A stretch of 64,000 nucleotides of DNA from Martelella endophytica (lineage in GTDB: Bacteria > Pseudomonadota > Alphaproteobacteria > Rhizobiales > Rhizobiaceae): positions 3,086,273 through 3,150,272 of the forward strand of contig NZ_CP010803.1 of NCBI RefSeq assembly GCF_000960975.1, written 5' to 3'. The notes beneath the pieces are model-generated. The model was not told where the DNA came from, made no database searches, and was given only the letters and a program-made list of their open reading frames with translations. Position numbers and translations under genes: made by a program. How positions within the stretch are numbered: the stretch's first letter is position 1; the number at the start of each line of letters is the position of its first letter. Shown piece by piece: positions 42,588 to 48,331 of the stretch.

Positions 42588-43106
42588 ATGAGCGGTAGCG
42601 AAGACAGGCTCACATCGGCGGCGGGGTCCGTGGCTCTGCTGATGGTGCTGAACAAGCCGGTCTACCCGATCTATGTCTGGTTCCTGGCGAACAGCATGTT
42701 CCATGCATCGCTGATTTCGCTGGCATCGCTCTGGCTTTACATTGCCGTCTGGCTGATGGCGCGAGGCGGGATCGGTCTGAAAGCGCGGGCAGGGCTGGTG
42801 ATCACCGGCACGTTGGACACGATCGTGATTGCCATCGGGCTCGGTCCGGGCAGCGGCGCGCTGTGGTTCCTGTTTCCGTGCCTGATGCTGGCCGCGAGCC
42901 TGTTCTACGCGGAAGAGAAATGGCTGTCGCGGACCATGGTCGCCGCCGTGTTCGTGGCCTTCATCGCGTTGCTCGGCCGCTATGGCAACCCGCCGGTGGA
43001 TGACGCCGCGTTGCGCAATCTCTTCGCGCTCAACGTCTCCGGTGCGGCGGCACTTGCGGCCTTCATCGCGCTGCGGTTTCCGCGCATTGCCGCAAACAGA
43101 CGCTAG
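42588..43106 (+). CDS. Small membrane protein of unknown function
   Basis: The 172-residue protein has five predicted membrane helices (about 12-32, 38-58, 68-86, 90-106, 150-168). I do not recognise the family. KPVYPIYVWFLAN at residue 23 is the most distinctive segment. It starts 3 bases after the DUF1295 stop, so it is certainly cotranscribed with it. Its stop codon shares the tetranucleotide CTAG with the stop of the converging methyltransferase gene. Confidence 0.7.
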   Translation: MSGSEDRLTSAAGSVALLMVLNKPVYPIYVWFLANSMFHASLISLASLWLYIAVWLMARGGIGLKARAGLVITGTLDTIVIAIGLGPGSGALWFLFPCLMLAASLFYAEEKWLSRTMVAAVFVAFIALLGRYGNPPVDDAALRNLFALNVSGAAALAAFIALRFPRIAANRR

Positions 43107-44314
43107 ACTGCCGGCTTGTGCAGGTGAAACTGGGCAACATCGATATTGCCGGCGTTGAAGCCGCTCGCGCAATAATGCAGGTAATAGCGCCACATCCGCC
43201 GGAAACGATCATCGAAGCCGAGCGGCCGGATTGCCTCCCATTCGGCAAGGAAGCGTTCTTCCCATTCGAGCAGTGTGCGGGCGTAGTCGCGACCGAAGGC
43301 GAAGAGTTCGCGCACCTTCAGCCCGGCCTCGCCAGCGCATTTCGAAAAACTCTCGAAGGAGGGCAGCATGCCGCCGGGGAAGATGTAGGCCTGGATGAAA
43401 TCCGGGTTTCGGCGGTAATGGTCCAGGCGATGGTCCTCGATCGCGATCGACTGGATGACCGCGGTGCCACCGGGGGCGAGCCTGTCATGGACGGCATCGA
43501 AGAAGGTCGGCCAGTTCTCCTCGCCGACGGCTTCGAACATCTCGATCGAGACGATCTTGTCATAGGTGCCGGTGCAGTCGCGATAATCCTCAAGACGGAT
43601 GTCGGCGCGATCGGACAGGCCCTTTTTCGCCAGCCGCTCGCGGGCATACTTCGCCTGTTCTTTGGAAAGCGTCAGTCCGGTGACATGACAGCCGGTGACG
43701 GCCGCAGCCCTTTCCGCAAAGCCGCCCCAGCCGCAGCCGATCTCCAGCACCCGGTCCTCGGGCCCGATCTGCAGCCGGGCGATAATCCGGTCGTACTTCG
43801 CAAGCTGGGCTTCCGAGAGCGAGCGCTCGCGCCCCTCGTAGAGCGCGGATGAATAGGTCATCGTCTCATCCAGCCAGCGTTCGTAGAAGGCGTTTCCGAG
43901 ATCGTAATGGAAGGCGATGTTGCGCTTGCTGCCGGACTTGGTGTTACGGCGCAGGCGGTGACGGAAGCGGGAGAGGGCGGTGAACACGGTCGAGGACGAG
44001 AGCACCGCGTCGAGGTGGTCCTCATTGACGATGGCAAGTTCCAGCAGCGCCGAAAGATCAGGGCTCTCCCAGTCGCCGTCGATATAGGAGCGGGCAAAGC
44101 CCAGGTCGCCATCGGTCATCAGCCGGAACAATGGTCGGGCGTTGCGGAGCGTGATCTCTGCCGTCGGGCCGTCCGCACTGCCGGTCACGGTCGCACTGCG
44201 GCCGCCGGGGAAGTGGAGCGTCAGCGTACCGATCCGGATGCGGCTCGCCATGCGCACGACCATGCGCTGCCAGAAATTGAGATCACGCTTGGGTTCGTTC
44301 TTCGATCCGTTCAT
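43103..44314 (-). CDS. Cyclopropane-fatty-acid-synthase-like SAM methyltransferase
   Basis: The protein of about 403 residues transfers a methyl or methylene unit from S-adenosylmethionine to an unsaturated acyl chain of a phospholipid. NIAFHYDLGNAFYERWLDETMTYSSALY, VLEIGCGWGGFAERAA (the SAM glycine loop, about 190-206) and QSIAIEDHRLDHYRRNPDFIQAYIFPGGMLPS are the CfaS family motifs, including the conserved bicarbonate/catalytic-region residues. ATG 44314 has GAGG just upstream; an earlier ATG at 44332 overlaps the DUF1365 gene more. It overlaps that gene by about 30 bases and is third in the FAD oxidoreductase-DUF1365-Cfa operon. Furan or branched fatty-acid formation is an alternative to simple cyclopropanation. 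Confidence 0.9.
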   Translation of the reverse strand: MNGSKNEPKRDLNFWQRMVVRMASRIRIGTLTLHFPGGRSATVTGSADGPTAEITLRNARPLFRLMTDGDLGFARSYIDGDWESPDLSALLELAIVNEDHLDAVLSSSTVFTALSRFRHRLRRNTKSGSKRNIAFHYDLGNAFYERWLDETMTYSSALYEGRERSLSEAQLAKYDRIIARLQIGPEDRVLEIGCGWGGFAERAAAVTGCHVTGLTLSKEQAKYARERLAKKGLSDRADIRLEDYRDCTGTYDKIVSIEMFEAVGEENWPTFFDAVHDRLAPGGTAVIQSIAIEDHRLDHYRRNPDFIQAYIFPGGMLPSFESFSKCAGEAGLKVRELFAFGRDYARTLLEWEERFLAEWEAIRPLGFDDRFRRMWRYYLHYCASGFNAGNIDVAQFHLHKPAV

Positions 44315-45095
44315 AGGCCTCGTCTTCCGCATGTCTGCCGCCGGCTACGACGCTCCGCACACGCGCCGCCGCCGGCGTGTGTCTGAAAAACGGAGCGCCC
44401 TTCAGCACAAGCCGGAGCGCTTCAAAATGAATACCCGCAAAAATCTTCAGCGTCATCAGCGGGTAACGCAGAAAAGCGTGGAGCAGGGTCCGGTCGGTCA
44501 GCGCCTGCCGCTTGCCGGCAAAGCCTGCATAGAGCAGCGGCCCCTCAGGATCGGTCTCGTTGATGCGCACGGAGACGGCGTCTTCAGGCGGGCTGATCGC
44601 GAAATGATAGACGCAATCCATCGGCATGAAGGGCGAGACATAGAACTGCTTTTCGGCCGACTGCCGCACCGGCCGGATATCGTCCTTCACCGGGATGATA
44701 TAGGTGAATCGCTCCTTGAAGGTGTTGCAGACCTCATAGAGGATGCCGACCAACCGGCCATCGTCGCCATAGCAAAAGAAGACCGTCAGCGGATTGAAGA
44801 CATAGCCGAGAATGCGTGGATAGCAGAGCATCTCGACGCGAACTGCTTCAAGACCGGCGCTTTCCAGTTCGCCGAGCGCCCAGGCCTTGAGATCGCCGCC
44901 GGTGAGACTGCCGTGGTCGCGGTCGAACAGGCTGAACAGCGCGAAGCGGTTGTGTGCAAAGAGCTTCAGCCGCCGGTCAAGCGCCGGCAGTTCGTCGAGG
45001 TCGATCAGCAGCGAAAACACCCGGTAGGAAAGCCGGTGCTTTTTTGGTCGGTGGCGCTGATGGATGACCTCGCCTCTGAAGATTCCTGATCTCAT
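44283..45095 (-). CDS. DUF1365 protein
   Basis: The 270-residue protein begins IFRGEVIHQRHRPKKHRLSYRVFSLLIDLDELPAL and carries YPRILGYVFNPLTVFFCYGDDGRLVGILYEVCNTFKER and KQFYVSPFMPMDCVYHFAISPP, all hallmarks of DUF1365. The family almost always sits between a flavin amine-oxidase-like gene and a cfa-like gene. In Rhodobacter, homologous clusters are under RpoE control and linked to unusual fatty acids; the biochemical role of DUF1365 itself is not settled. It overlaps the FAD oxidoreductase gene by 4 bases and the methyltransferase gene by 32, so translation is coupled. Confidence 0.9.
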   Translation of the reverse strand: MRSGIFRGEVIHQRHRPKKHRLSYRVFSLLIDLDELPALDRRLKLFAHNRFALFSLFDRDHGSLTGGDLKAWALGELESAGLEAVRVEMLCYPRILGYVFNPLTVFFCYGDDGRLVGILYEVCNTFKERFTYIIPVKDDIRPVRQSAEKQFYVSPFMPMDCVYHFAISPPEDAVSVRINETDPEGPLLYAGFAGKRQALTDRTLLHAFLRYPLMTLKIFAGIHFEALRLVLKGAPFFRHTPAAARVRSVVAGGRHAEDEAYERIEERTQA

Positions 45096-46456
45096 TCGGC
45101 CGCCAAACGTTTGGTTGCGGGAATGAATATCCTGCCCGATTCGTTTTCGACCTGCCAGGGACGGCGCACGCCGGCGATCGCTTCCGCCACCGCCAGGCCG
45201 GATTGCAGGCCATCCTCATGGAAGCCGCTGCCGAAATGGGCGCCGCAATACCAGACATTGCCGCGGCCCTGGATATGCCAGAGCGCGCGCTGCGCCTCGA
45301 TCGCTTGCCGGTCGAACAGCGGGTGGGTGTAGCAGAAGCAATCGTGGATCTTGCCGGGATCGATCGCACGGGCCGGATTGAGCGTGACGAACAGCGGGTA
45401 GCGCTCGTCGATCGATTGCAGCCGGTTCATCCAGTAGGTCACGCAGAGTTGCGGCTGGCCTGAGCTTCTGTCCTCCAGGTAGTTCCAGCTCGACCAGACC
45501 TTCCGCCGTTTCGGCATCAGCGACGCGTCGCTGTGCAAAATCGCGTCATTGTAGCTGTAGCGGAAGGAAGAGAGCAGGTTGCGCTCCTCGTCGTCGGCGT
45601 GGGCGAGCATCGACAGGGCCTGGTCGGCATGGGTGGCGATGACGACATCATCGAATCGCTGCCGTTCGCCGTTCTCCAGGGTGAGCCAGACGCCGTCCTC
45701 GCGACGGTCGACGGCCTTTACGGGCGTGGAAAGGCGCAAGGGACCGCTGAGGTCGAGCAGGGCCCGCTTCACATATTCGCGGCTTCCGCCGGTGACCGTG
45801 CGCCATTCCGGCCGATCGGCAAGAGTCAGCAGACCGTGGCTTTCGAAGAAGCGGGTGAAGGCGAGGAGAGGGTAGGCCCGCATCTTGTCGGCCGTCGTCG
45901 ACCAGATCGCAGCCCCCATCGGCAGGATATGGTCCTCGACAAAGCGCCGCGAATAGCCGCGCGCGTCGAGATAGTCGCCAAGCGTCAGCGCATCGGCCGC
46001 GCTGTGGTTGGCGACAAGCGGTGCCTCGCGGTAGAAACGGAAGATGTCGTAGACCATCCGCCAGAAGCTGAACCGCAGGATATTGGACTTCTGCGCCAGC
46101 ATCGTCGCGATATTGGTGCCGCCATATTCGAAGGCGCCATCGTCGAGCGAGGCCGAGAACGACATTTCCGAGGGCTGCGTCTTGACGCCGAGATAATCGA
46201 GGAAGGCTGTCAGGTTCGGATAGTTGCGCTCGTTAAAGACAATGAAGCCGGTATCGACCGGGACGCTTCTGTCGGCGAATGTCGCAACGGCCGTATTGGA
46301 GTGACCGCCCGGCCGGCTGTCGGCCTCGAAGAGGGTCACCCTGGCCGTCTTGCTCAGCAGCCAGGCCGCTGAGAGCCCGGAAATCCCCGAGCCGATGACG
46401 GCGATTTCGGCCGAAGCCCGGTGGCGTCTGAATGAACGATCTGGCCTGAATTGCAT
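45092..46456 (-). CDS. FAD-dependent amine-oxidase-like oxidoreductase
   Basis: The protein of about 454 residues has the Rossmann FAD motif AVIGSGISGLSAAWLLSKTARVTLFEADSRPGGHSNT (about 18-54) and a central domain with TGFIVFNERNYPN. The C-terminal FAD loop YCGAHFGSGFHEDGLQSGLAVAEAI is near residue 420. It belongs to the NAD(P)/FAD amine-oxidase-like group that accompanies DUF1365 and Cfa proteins and probably dehydrogenates or oxidises acyl chains. ATG 46456 has GGGAG about 11 bases upstream; the TTG at 46480 would coincide with the predicted transcription start. It is the first gene of the operon and is divergent from rpoE. Confidence 0.88.
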   Translation of the reverse strand: MQFRPDRSFRRHRASAEIAVIGSGISGLSAAWLLSKTARVTLFEADSRPGGHSNTAVATFADRSVPVDTGFIVFNERNYPNLTAFLDYLGVKTQPSEMSFSASLDDGAFEYGGTNIATMLAQKSNILRFSFWRMVYDIFRFYREAPLVANHSAADALTLGDYLDARGYSRRFVEDHILPMGAAIWSTTADKMRAYPLLAFTRFFESHGLLTLADRPEWRTVTGGSREYVKRALLDLSGPLRLSTPVKAVDRREDGVWLTLENGERQRFDDVVIATHADQALSMLAHADDEERNLLSSFRYSYNDAILHSDASLMPKRRKVWSSWNYLEDRSSGQPQLCVTYWMNRLQSIDERYPLFVTLNPARAIDPGKIHDCFCYTHPLFDRQAIEAQRALWHIQGRGNVWYCGAHFGSGFHEDGLQSGLAVAEAIAGVRRPWQVENESGRIFIPATKRLAAE

Positions 46457-46484
46457 GCCTTTGAGCTCTCCCTGTTTCAAGTCA

Positions 46485-46514
46485 CTCTACGCTTTGGCTG
46501 AAAGCGCGGATTGA
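46485..46514 (-). promoter_or_regulatory. Candidate ECF (RpoE) promoter for the FAD oxidoreductase-DUF1365-cfa operon
   Basis: On the minus strand TCAATCC (46514-46508), 16 bases, then CGTAGA (46491-46486). The same TCAATCC-N16-CGTA pattern occurs on the plus strand in front of rpoE. The ATCC core resembles the TGATCC-type -35 described for Rhodobacter RpoE. Transcription would begin near 46480, leaving a 24-base leader to ATG 46456. Confidence 0.6.
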
Positions 46515-46538
46515 AAAGCGGAAAAATTTGTTAGAACC

Positions 46539-46568
46539 TCAATCCGGAGGGCGGCCTGGCGCGTAACG
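46539..46568 (+). promoter_or_regulatory. Candidate ECF (RpoE) autoregulatory promoter
   Basis: TCAATCC (46539-46545) and CGTAACG (46562-46568) are separated by 16 bases. The identical layout on the other strand, 25 bases away, makes chance unlikely. Transcription would start near 46573, upstream of the internal rpoE start codons at 46659 and 46683 and practically on top of the ATG at 46575. Confidence 0.6.
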
Positions 46569-46682
46569 TTCATCATGTTCGAGCTTGTCCAACCCTCACG
46601 ACCCCGCGTCGCACGCCTGCGTCCTTCCGGACGCATGCCGCGTGTGACGCCCATTGGAATGAAAACCGCGAAGGGCGGACGC

Positions 46683-47240
46683 TTGGACGAAGTGACATCA
46701 TCGGAAATGACCCGATGCCTCATCCGTGTGGGTGAGGCGCGGGACCGCGCGGCCTTCGAGGCGCTCTTCCGTCACTTCGGGCCGCGCGTCCGAGCCTATA
46801 TGCTGAAGCGCGCTTTCGACGTCGCGCTTGCCGACGAATTGATGCAGGAAACGATGATGACCGTCTGGCGCAAGGCCGGACAGTTCGATGCCGGCCGCGG
46901 CAATGCCTCGGCCTGGATCTTCACCGTCGCCCGCAACATCCGCATCGACAGCCTGCGCCGATCGCGCCGGCCGGAATTCGATCCCGAGGATCCGGCACTG
47001 GTGCCCGAGGCGCCGGCGGCGCCCGACCAGAATTTCGAGGACGGCCAGGATGCCGAGCGCATCCGCGTCGCACTCGCCACGCTGCCGAGCGAACAGGCCG
47101 AACTTCTCAGAATGTCGTTTTTCGAGGAAATACCGCACAGCATGATTGCAGAAAGGATGTCGCTGCCGCTTGGAACCGTGAAATCGCGTATCCGGGCAGC
47201 GTTTTCAAAATTGAGATATGCGCTTGGAGACGAACGATGA
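46683..47240 (+). CDS. rpoE: ECF sigma factor RpoE (ChrR-linked, ECF11 type)
   Basis: The protein of about 185 residues has sigma region 2 (AFEALFRHFGPRVRAYMLKR, ADELMQETMMTVWRKAGQFD, ASAWIFTVARNIRIDSLRRS). Region 4 follows (LATLPSEQAELLRMSFFEEIPHSMIAERMSLPLGTVKSRIRAAFSKLR). The overlap with chrR (ATGA) and the nature of chrR place it in the singlet-oxygen group known from Rhodobacter sphaeroides. The start is uncertain: TTG 46683 has AAGGGCGG 4-5 bases upstream and gives the usual family length, ATG 46659 adds 8 residues, and ATG 46575 sits at the predicted transcription start. It likely drives both divergent units. Confidence 0.92.
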   Translation: MDEVTSSEMTRCLIRVGEARDRAAFEALFRHFGPRVRAYMLKRAFDVALADELMQETMMTVWRKAGQFDAGRGNASAWIFTVARNIRIDSLRRSRRPEFDPEDPALVPEAPAAPDQNFEDGQDAERIRVALATLPSEQAELLRMSFFEEIPHSMIAERMSLPLGTVKSRIRAAFSKLRYALGDER

Positions 47241-47905
47241 CCGTTTCCGCAAGACACCACGTCAGCGACGACCTGTTGCTCGAATATGCCGCGGGCAGCC
47301 TCAGCGAAGGCTGGAGCCTCGCTGTTGCCACCCATCTTGCCTATTGCCCGGACTGCCGCAAGCGGCTTTCGATGATGGAGGCGGCAGGCGGCGCTCTGCT
47401 GGAAGACATCAAGACCGATGAAGCCGATGTCGATGATGCCTGGGCCACCATGCTCGGCCGGCTCGACAGCGATGATACGGAGGATCGCGAGCCGGTTGCG
47501 GCGGTGCCGGCTGATGCAAAGGCCGATGTCCCCGAACCGCTGCGTTCCTATCTCGGCGGGGCACTTTCTGATGTCCGGTGGAAGCGGCTCGGGGTCGGCG
47601 CCCATCAGTATCTCGTGCCCACCGGCGACACGGCCGTGACCGCAAGGCTTTTGCGGGTGCCAGCCGGAAGTCCCCTGCCGGAGCACAGTCATGGCGGCCG
47701 CGAACTTACGCTGGTGCTGACCGGAAGCTTCGTGTCGGAAGGCGAGACCTATGCGCCGGGTGATCTAGAGGAGGAGGATGACGAAACCCTGCATCAGCCG
47801 GTGGTGACGCCCGATGCGGAATGCATCTGCCTCACCGTCACCGACGCCCCGCTGCGCTTCAGTAGCCGGCTGATGCGCATCGTCCAGCCGTTTCTCGGGA
47901 TCTGA
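47237..47905 (+). CDS. chrR: ChrR-family zinc anti-sigma factor
   Basis: The 222-residue protein is the specific antagonist of RpoE. The N-terminal zinc anti-sigma domain has His8, His33, Cys37 and Cys40 (HHVSDD, THLAYCPDC), the same spacing as the H-H-C-C site of Rhodobacter ChrR. The C-terminal cupin (about 120-215) carries the second metal site: PEHSHGGRE (two His and Glu) and TLHQP (His), the part needed for release by singlet oxygen in the known system. Its start overlaps the rpoE stop by 4 bases (ATGA), so the pair is translationally coupled. Confidence 0.94.
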   Translation: MTVSARHHVSDDLLLEYAAGSLSEGWSLAVATHLAYCPDCRKRLSMMEAAGGALLEDIKTDEADVDDAWATMLGRLDSDDTEDREPVAAVPADAKADVPEPLRSYLGGALSDVRWKRLGVGAHQYLVPTGDTAVTARLLRVPAGSPLPEHSHGGRELTLVLTGSFVSEGETYAPGDLEEEDDETLHQPVVTPDAECICLTVTDAPLRFSSRLMRIVQPFLGI

Positions 47906-47914
47906 GGAAAGATC

Positions 47915-48331
47915 ATGCGCGCGCGCCTCATCGCCGTCATTGCCACGGTTGCGGTCTTTTCGCTCTGCGATTTCATCTGGCTCGGGACCGTCGCCTTCAG
48001 CTTCTATGAAGCCGAAATCGGTGGACTTCTGCTTGCCGAGCCGAACTGGACGGCGGGCCTTGCGTTTTACGGCATGTATATGATCGGGATTTACTATTTC
48101 GGCGTGCTGCCTGGAATCCGCCGGCGTTCGCGACTGCGGGCGCTGTTCAACGGTGCCCTGTTCGGTCTGATGGCCTACGGAACCTACGACCTGACCAACA
48201 TGGCGACGCTTGAAGGCTGGTCATGGAATGTCGTGGCACTCGACATGGCGTGGGGCCTGTTCGCTTCGGGGCTGACGGCGTTTCTTGCCACCTGGGCAGG
48301 CATCAGGTTCTCGGCAAGCCGCCAAGGTTAA
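47915..48331 (+). CDS. DUF2177 membrane protein
   Basis: The 138-residue protein has four membrane helices (about 4-22, 43-63, 76-95, 106-128). It has the family markers DFIWLGTVAFSFYEAEIG, AFYGMYMIGIYYFGVLPG and GLMAYGTYDLTNMATLEGWSW. DUF2177 proteins are regular members of RpoE/ChrR and cfa neighbourhoods, but their role is unknown. The gene starts 9 bases after chrR and is cotranscribed. Its stop codon shares TTAA with the stop of the converging EAL gene. Confidence 0.88.
   Translation: MRARLIAVIATVAVFSLCDFIWLGTVAFSFYEAEIGGLLLAEPNWTAGLAFYGMYMIGIYYFGVLPGIRRRSRLRALFNGALFGLMAYGTYDLTNMATLEGWSWNVVALDMAWGLFASGLTAFLATWAGIRFSASRQG

Follow-up and report, generated by a model that had tools for sequence, protein, structure and literature searches.

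The closest described counterpart of the locus analysed here is the rpoE-chrR / RSP1091-1087 region of R. sphaeroides, which likewise combines an ECF sigma factor and ChrR with a neighbouring ufaD/ufaO operon, and in which each of the two operons likewise has its own sigma-E promoter, both promoters being sigma-E-dependent and forming part of a positive feedback loop (PMC3818230, PMC6852236; here and below, statements from the literature refer to the available portions of the cited papers). In that organism, the turnover of ChrR under singlet oxygen requires UfaD and UfaO (PMC3818230, PMC6852236, PMC7380195), which correspond to RSP1091 and RSP1090 (DUF1365), respectively, and belong to furan fatty acid synthesis (PMC7380195). 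The ufaM gene of R. sphaeroides is RSP2144, outside the RSP1091-1087 operon, whereas in the locus described here it adjoins ufaO. The same three kinds of genes, numbered in the same order, are found in R. palustris as RPA2571-2569 (ufaD-ufaO-ufaM), and there the furan fatty acid 9M5-FuFA was shown to need these genes, which also suffice for it (PMC7380195); the available text does not describe their regulation.

In Streptomyces SigR/SigR', a self-activated ECF promoter likewise yields a transcript for an N-terminally extended sigma factor, but the sigma and anti-sigma factors are different ones and the extension stems from two promoters of one gene (PMC4921905); unlike in that system, no second, shorter RpoE product is evident here. 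The leaderless mRNAs of S. meliloti and B. japonicum likewise have the first base of the start codon as +1, with AUG in all those of S. meliloti, but they were found gene by gene by RNA-seq, and the available text of these reports makes no class-wide link to self-activated ECF promoters (PMC3616915, PMC4842269). Neither a leaderless start nor a shared A/T tract is mentioned for R. sphaeroides in the portions at hand of PMC3818230 and PMC6852236, and the corresponding portions of PMC4842269, PMC5756330 and PMC6180224 hold nothing on a leaderless start of rpoE. The literature searched yielded no earlier account of an rpoE with such a leaderless start; work on the core regulon may contain one.

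The locus is a further member of the sigma-E/ChrR (ECF11) feedback module of R. sphaeroides, a system that is itself already known. The new part is the recurrent leaderless start predicted for the self-activated sigma gene, mostly on one arm of a mirror promoter, together with a recurring A/T tract.

Gene content of the locus

The features of the locus are collected in Table 1. The window referred to throughout is the whole 64-kb stretch of DNA that was analysed.

Table 1. Genes, promoters and associated elements of the divergent rpoE and ufaD operons (window coordinates).
Feature	Positions	Strand	Remarks
ufaM-like SAM-dependent fatty-acyl methyltransferase (CMAS family)	43103..44332	-	gene order as in R. 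palustris RPA2571-2569
ufaO-like DUF1365 protein	44283..45095	-	candidate fatty-acyl monooxygenase, function according to the available text of PMC7380195
ufaD-like FAD/amine oxidase	45092..46456	-	putative fatty-acyl desaturase in furan fatty acid synthesis; start codon ATG 46456
ufaD-ward sigma-E-type promoter	46486..46514	-	TCAATCC 46514-46508, N16, CGTAGA 46491-46486; conserved in relatives
A/T tract AAAAATTT	46522..46529		halfway from one -35 box to the other; may be a UP element common to both promoters
rpoE-ward sigma-E-type promoter	46539..46567	+	TCAATCC 46539-46545, N16, CGTAAC 46562-46567; conserved in relatives
rpoE start codon ATG	46575..46577	+	predicted transcription start (+1); leaderless mRNA predicted
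rpoE	46575..47240	+	ECF sigma factor of the sigma-E/ChrR (ECF11) type, 221 aa, long N-terminal extension
chrR	47237..47905	+	zinc anti-sigma factor; ATG overlaps the rpoE stop codon
DUF2177 membrane protein gene	47915..48331	+	9 nt after chrR

When compared with solved structures only, RpoE has R. sphaeroides sigma-E as its best relative (2q1z_A, E 1.3e-37), and its closest named relatives are those of Martelella, with 61-71% identity. ChrR reaches 219.8 bits with TIGR02451, whose curated cut-off is 124.5, and it shows a Cupin_7 domain above the cut-off and a zf-HC2 domain slightly below it (21.1 against 22.2 bits); in an alignment to 2z2s_B, the zinc ligands of both domains (His, Cys/Glu positions according to PMC6852236) are kept. 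The element in front of rpoE, CAATCC-N16-CGTA, is of the TGATCC-N16-CGTA type of sigma-E/ChrR systems, with the spacer and the -10 core kept and two departures in the -35 hexamer. The sigma factor, the adjacent ChrR, its zinc ligands and the promoter type place the locus, as judged from its sequence, among the sigma-E/ChrR (ECF11) systems. By analogy with these, the rpoE promoter would be autoregulated by its RpoE, and singlet oxygen or organic peroxide would be expected to induce the system by way of ChrR turnover, as predicted for an ECF11 locus. The N-terminal extension of RpoE ahead of region 2 is long and variable, and it comprises about 48 residues here (46575-46720).

On the opposite strand, the FAD/amine oxidase, DUF1365 and CMAS genes are consecutive, so that the three enzymes of the Ufa pathway are encoded together, the Ufa names being assigned from family and gene order rather than from a side-by-side comparison with the Ufa sequences themselves. 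The first-pass annotation had described an operon of FAD oxidoreductase, DUF1365 and cfa; the first two families were recovered, but the third gene is ufaM-like rather than cfa. The methyltransferase stays below the curated Cfa models (282.6 of 600 and 282.5 of 400 bits), and in an alignment to 6bqc QYSCAYW becomes TYSSALY and LHTIG becomes IQSIA. It carries Ser and Gln in place of the Cys and His of E. coli Cfa, which we take to be ligands of the bicarbonate site. Because of these scores and of the two differing residues at the bicarbonate site, UfaM appears to be a better name than Cfa; the methyltransferase is more likely of the UfaM type, and the operon would be better named ufaD-ufaO-ufaM, after furan fatty acids, than cfa. 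By analogy with R. palustris, such an operon may also direct the production of 9M5-FuFA.

A DUF2177 gene replaces rpoE opposite ufaD in four loci without rpoE (L103, L113, L115 and L130), which makes DUF2177 a probable member of the regulon. The one in the window is probably also part of the rpoE-chrR operon. Its likely start codon under the mirror promoter of these four loci lies recurrently 19-29 nt past CGTA. In a further locus (L102), a mirror pair separates the DUF2177 gene from another open reading frame, and both ufaD and rpoE are absent.

A mirror pair of promoters and its conservation

Two copies of TCAATCC-N16-CGTA lie back to back in the intergenic region between rpoE-chrR and the ufaD operon, at 46539-46565 on the plus strand and at 46514-46488 on the minus strand, and 24 bases separate their TCAATCC boxes when the sequence is read directly. 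The first-pass annotation had noticed the same motif and spacing on both strands, about 25 bases apart, and had considered such a mirror pair hard to obtain by chance. The reading given above, with N16 on both sides, agrees with the former observation, and the latter was borne out by shuffling: TCAATCC-N14..18-CGTA has two matches in the whole window, both of them in the mirror pair, against a mean of 0.07, and never two, in 100 dinucleotide-preserving shuffles of the window. The exact N16 form occurs five times in the whole genome (4.81 Mb), and the three copies beyond the pair overlap long open reading frames. Allowing one mismatch gives 33 genome matches, of which few loci were inspected, and YRATCC-N16-CGTA gives 15. 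In a homologue search, none of the matches of this looser form other than the pair showed a relative of rpoE, chrR or ufa, so no wider regulon was shown. A consensus scan found no terminator between the divergent genes.

In 70 loci found by RpoE similarity, NNATCC-N15..17-CGTA was present near rpoE in both directions in 48, in one direction in 15 and in none in 7. According to the first-pass annotation, absence of the pattern from close relatives would speak against the pair; all of the nine closest loci (L001-L008 and L064) turned out to have both promoters with N16. The RATCC/CGTA core is exact both ways in five of them, and the other four show one-base departures, on both sides in L003 and L006 and on the rpoE side in L005 and L064. 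A search of DNA only, with the pattern TACG-N16-GGATY-N14..44-RATCC-N16-CGTA, was run on 397 genomes of the order; 33 of them, this one among them, contain the mirror pair, and the reversed control gave 0. Thirty pattern loci were inspected, including the window and leaving out 3 of the 33 pattern genomes; ufaD was found in 26, rpoE-chrR in 22 and at least one of them in 27, and one of the three loci with neither has a weak ufaM-like match. Outside the window's clade, the rpoE side mostly reads TGATCC and the ufaD side often CAATCC. On this comparison, the part that stays conserved is RATCC-N16-CGTA, and the exact TCAATCC shared by the two directions partly reflects clade drift. The proposal that RpoE drives both its own operon and the divergent one is supported by the gene identities and by the promoters of relatives, which suggest that RpoE would use both sites here as well.

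The description of the pair as one compact region holds for the window, with its 24 bases, but compactness varies across the class, and the gap between the RATCC cores, 28 in the window, ranges from 14 to 113 across 99 loci. Helical phasing of the two promoters was considered and rejected. The core gaps cluster at 28-29 and 38-41, resembling one turn, and when one gap value was taken per cluster and the 28/29 mode was included, none of 5000 jittered sets gave a 10.5-bp signal as high as the one found (R 0.37, n=71). Periods of 11-15.5 match or slightly exceed the 10.5-bp score, and the signal is lost without the 28/29 mode (R 0.19, n=53, P 0.15).

Start codons of ufaD and rpoE

Both promoters had also been said to lie at the right distance from a start codon. 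On the ufaD side this stands: 31 nt separate CGTA from the ATG at 46456, which fits a leader of 22 nt with the predicted +1 near 46478. The most likely ufaD start is ATG 46456 and not TTG 46480, because the latter would precede the predicted +1. On the rpoE side, CGTA is only 9 nt from ATG 46575, whose A is the tenth base after CGTA, which leaves no room for a leader. The earlier suggestion that the promoters help to pick the start codons nevertheless proved useful here, since they suggest that rpoE starts at +1. With an in-frame ATG 8-9 nt past CGTA, at the predicted +1, the rpoE mRNA should be leaderless.

This spacing recurs in relatives. The nine closest loci, like the window, have an ATG 9 nt after the rpoE-ward box (CGTT in L003 and L006). 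An in-frame ATG at 8 or 9 nt was found at 50 of 55 rpoE sites in the similarity-found set (70 loci and the window) and at 19 of 21 in the pattern loci, two sets that are biased towards the mirror architecture, and at 45 of 92 in a class-wide set for which chrR was the sole criterion. The corresponding values for the ufaD sites are 5 of 56, 0 of 25 and 0 of 37. The class-wide loci are the chrR matches above the cut-off among the matches listed; 18 of 150 without a recognisable rpoE were left out, and the pattern used finds a promoter site in 92 of the 131 rpoE loci. Two copies of the window (L126 and L156) were omitted from these counts, and the window itself was used; L104 was also left aside in the study. 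Class-wide, the offsets from 3 to 60 other than 8 and 9 hold 1.05 loci each on average, and among the 47 of 92 rpoE sites without ATG at 8 or 9 there are four with GTG at these offsets, four with the first in-frame ATG at 10 and two with it at 7. When all of the 168 rpoE sites were taken, which are 168 distinct sequences, 114 had ATG at 8 or 9 and 5 others GTG; of the 115 ATGs found there, 114 share an open frame with rpoE.

Clustering of RpoE at 80% identity left 68 of 115 clusters with all members of the leaderless type and 2 mixed, against 1 of 68 (1 mixed) for the ufaD sites (Fisher 1e-17), and at 70% identity the values were 43 of 87 clusters (3 mixed) for rpoE against 0 of 42 (2 mixed) for ufaD. 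On a quick FastTree tree of the 168 RpoE sequences, with branches not weighed, at least 18 changes between the leaderless type and other states were counted, and a single inherited accident is therefore unlikely. Further matches supplied an extra set, with 31 non-alphaproteobacterial places above the cut-off among the matches listed and 13 alphaproteobacterial loci used; the latter have ATG at 8 or 9 at 10 of 12 sites, some repeating genomes already counted. Outside the class, 26 of 41 loci have no promoter site by the pattern, and none of the 15 sites has ATG at 8 or 9, one having it at 10. A universal leaderless start across the class is ruled out by the 45 of 92, and outside the class by the 0 of 15.

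The likely transcription start was also approached through the pyrimidine-purine initiator signature. At 113 ufaD promoters without ATG at 8 or 9, it peaks at offset 10 with 0.52, the next best of 16 offsets reaching 0.29, and C accounts for 0.39 at position 9 and A for 0.53 at position 10. The signature also peaks at offset 10, less sharply (0.39), at 54 other rpoE promoters. This offset is the position of the A of the rpoE ATG, and in 112 of 114 cases a pyrimidine precedes the leaderless-type ATG. The rpoE frame from the ATG at 8 or 9 to the homologous region contains a stop in 0 of 111 loci, the other frames in 104 and 85. A Shine-Dalgarno-like (SD-like) 4-mer stands ahead of the rpoE ATGs at 7-10 nt in 6 of 120 cases, and ahead of distant ATGs in 42 of 103 (ufaD) and 13 of 48 (rpoE); the rpoE start has the features of a leaderless one, an AUG without Shine-Dalgarno. 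In S. meliloti, the RpoE9 element TGTCACA-N16-CGTC lies 9 nt upstream of the mapped start (PMC3616915), and transcription from the orthologous promoters of Shewanella starts at an A downstream of TGATCC/CGTA (PMC4336711). The initiator signature, the pyrimidine before the ATG, the starts in these two organisms and the rarity of SD-like sequences all indicate that the rpoE transcript should begin at the AUG, and the rpoE mRNA from its own promoter is predicted to be leaderless, with the A of its start codon as the first base. A GTG start lying 8 bp past an ECF -10 box in B. japonicum has been regarded as possibly misannotated (PMC3420878). The codon-position entropy over codons 2-8 is flat and gives no support for translation of the first codons, which suggests that these are under no protein-level constraint of their own.

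The A/T tract between the promoters

At 26 non-redundant loci with a core gap of 28 or 29, most of them Rhizobiaceae-like and hence related, the A/T content of gap positions 12-19 is 0.73-1.00, with 11 of 16 values of at least 0.9, and most of the flanking gap positions lie below 0.55. When loci of every gap length are taken together, the longest A/T run exceeds that in shuffled versions of the gap in 70 of 83 loci, and in many long-gap loci the tract holds its distance from the ufaD -35 box. A rise in A/T content 13-20 nt upstream of the core was also observed at unpaired promoters, reaching 0.69-0.71 at 18 ufaD promoters without an rpoE site and being weak (0.52-0.57) at 67 rpoE promoters that have no ufaD site facing the other way. 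Such enrichment at unpaired promoters is as expected of a promoter element, and the tract may be a UP element that serves both directions of the mirror pair.

Proposed mechanism and alternative explanations

We propose, with a probability of about 0.8, that the locus is an autoregulatory hub of the ECF11 response to singlet oxygen and organic peroxides, with two sigma-E promoters, a leaderless rpoE and a leadered ufaD. When ChrR is lost, both of the back-to-back sigma-E promoters would fire, one towards rpoE-chrR-DUF2177 and the other towards ufaD-ufaO-ufaM, with one central A/T (UP-like) tract that is probably common to both. The ufaD mRNA would be translated with its predicted 22-nt leader, and the rpoE transcript from its own promoter as a leaderless mRNA. 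UfaD and UfaO would promote the turnover of ChrR under singlet oxygen, as in R. sphaeroides, and, being needed for this turnover, they would close a positive loop.

Recognition of both sites by another ECF sigma factor, or activity of just one of the sites, appears most improbable: although the -35 element reads CAATCC here and usually TGATCC in relatives, RATCC-N16-CGTA is kept at both promoters in relatives, and the orthologous sigma factor uses TGATCC/CGTA in R. sphaeroides (PMC5036791) and Shewanella (PMC4336711). The function of the A/T tract admits a different reading, as the site of a separate regulator or as a curvature element instead of a UP element. It would agree with a tract that is compact, single and at one fixed place in the loci with a gap of 28-29, and we hold it to be a real possibility while inclining against it, because the A/T-rich position 13-20 nt upstream is also found at unpaired ufaD promoters and, weakly, at unpaired rpoE promoters.

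An ordinary leadered rpoE, with the true start downstream, preceded by a ribosome-binding site of its own, and with an ATG at +9 that is incidental or adds just a dispensable extension, would be compatible with first codons that lack codon-position constraint and with an alignment to R. sphaeroides sigma-E that begins at its residue 17 and at residue 49 here. Internal in-frame start codons are indeed present in 112 of 114 leaderless-type loci, and an internal ATG, GTG or TTG is accompanied by an SD-like 4-mer in 28 of the 114. Such a start is nevertheless quite improbable, since offsets 8 and 9 carry an ATG in an open rpoE frame at 114 of 168 sites, far above the other offsets, the reading frame is open in 111 of 111 loci, and an internal ATG is accompanied by an SD-like 4-mer in only 6 of 114. 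The last figure, together with that of 28 of 114 for any start, with scattered positions, likewise speaks against two isoforms of the SigR/SigR' kind, in which the self-activated promoter would provide an extended, perhaps unstable RpoE and another promoter with a downstream start the shorter form. The self-dependent sigRp2 of S. coelicolor, whose product is unstable and 55 residues longer at the N terminus (PMC4921905), is a precedent for this arrangement, and the leaderless ATG does give a long extension of variable length: a median of 68 residues precedes the FRHF reference, compared with 58.5 in the remaining loci. No sigma-70-like promoter, however, was found when 46300-46900 was scanned for the consensus, and we regard the two-isoform explanation as unlikely.

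The promoter pair is wired as expected for a stress hub that is already known, and the added result is the fixed coupling of the -10 box to the rpoE AUG, found mostly on one arm of the symmetric pair. This coupling informs the choice of the start codons of rpoE and ufaD, and it offers an evolutionary way into the question of why leaderless starts occur in some stress regulators. A wider and rather doubtful proposition is that selection would have made the transcript by which the singlet-oxygen sigma factor amplifies itself leaderless in many Alphaproteobacteria, and not that of the mirror target operon. If this were true, stress-modified ribosomes would favour the synthesis of sigma-E just when ChrR is destroyed, and a translational layer would be built into the shared promoter region.

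Two minor observations concern individual loci. In L034, L035, L040, L069 and L055, ufaD also has an in-frame ATG 9 nt past CGTA, and both arms may be leaderless there. In the rpoE promoter of L065 (Skermanella), the ATG at 9 nt is out of frame and an in-frame ATG is found at 20 nt.
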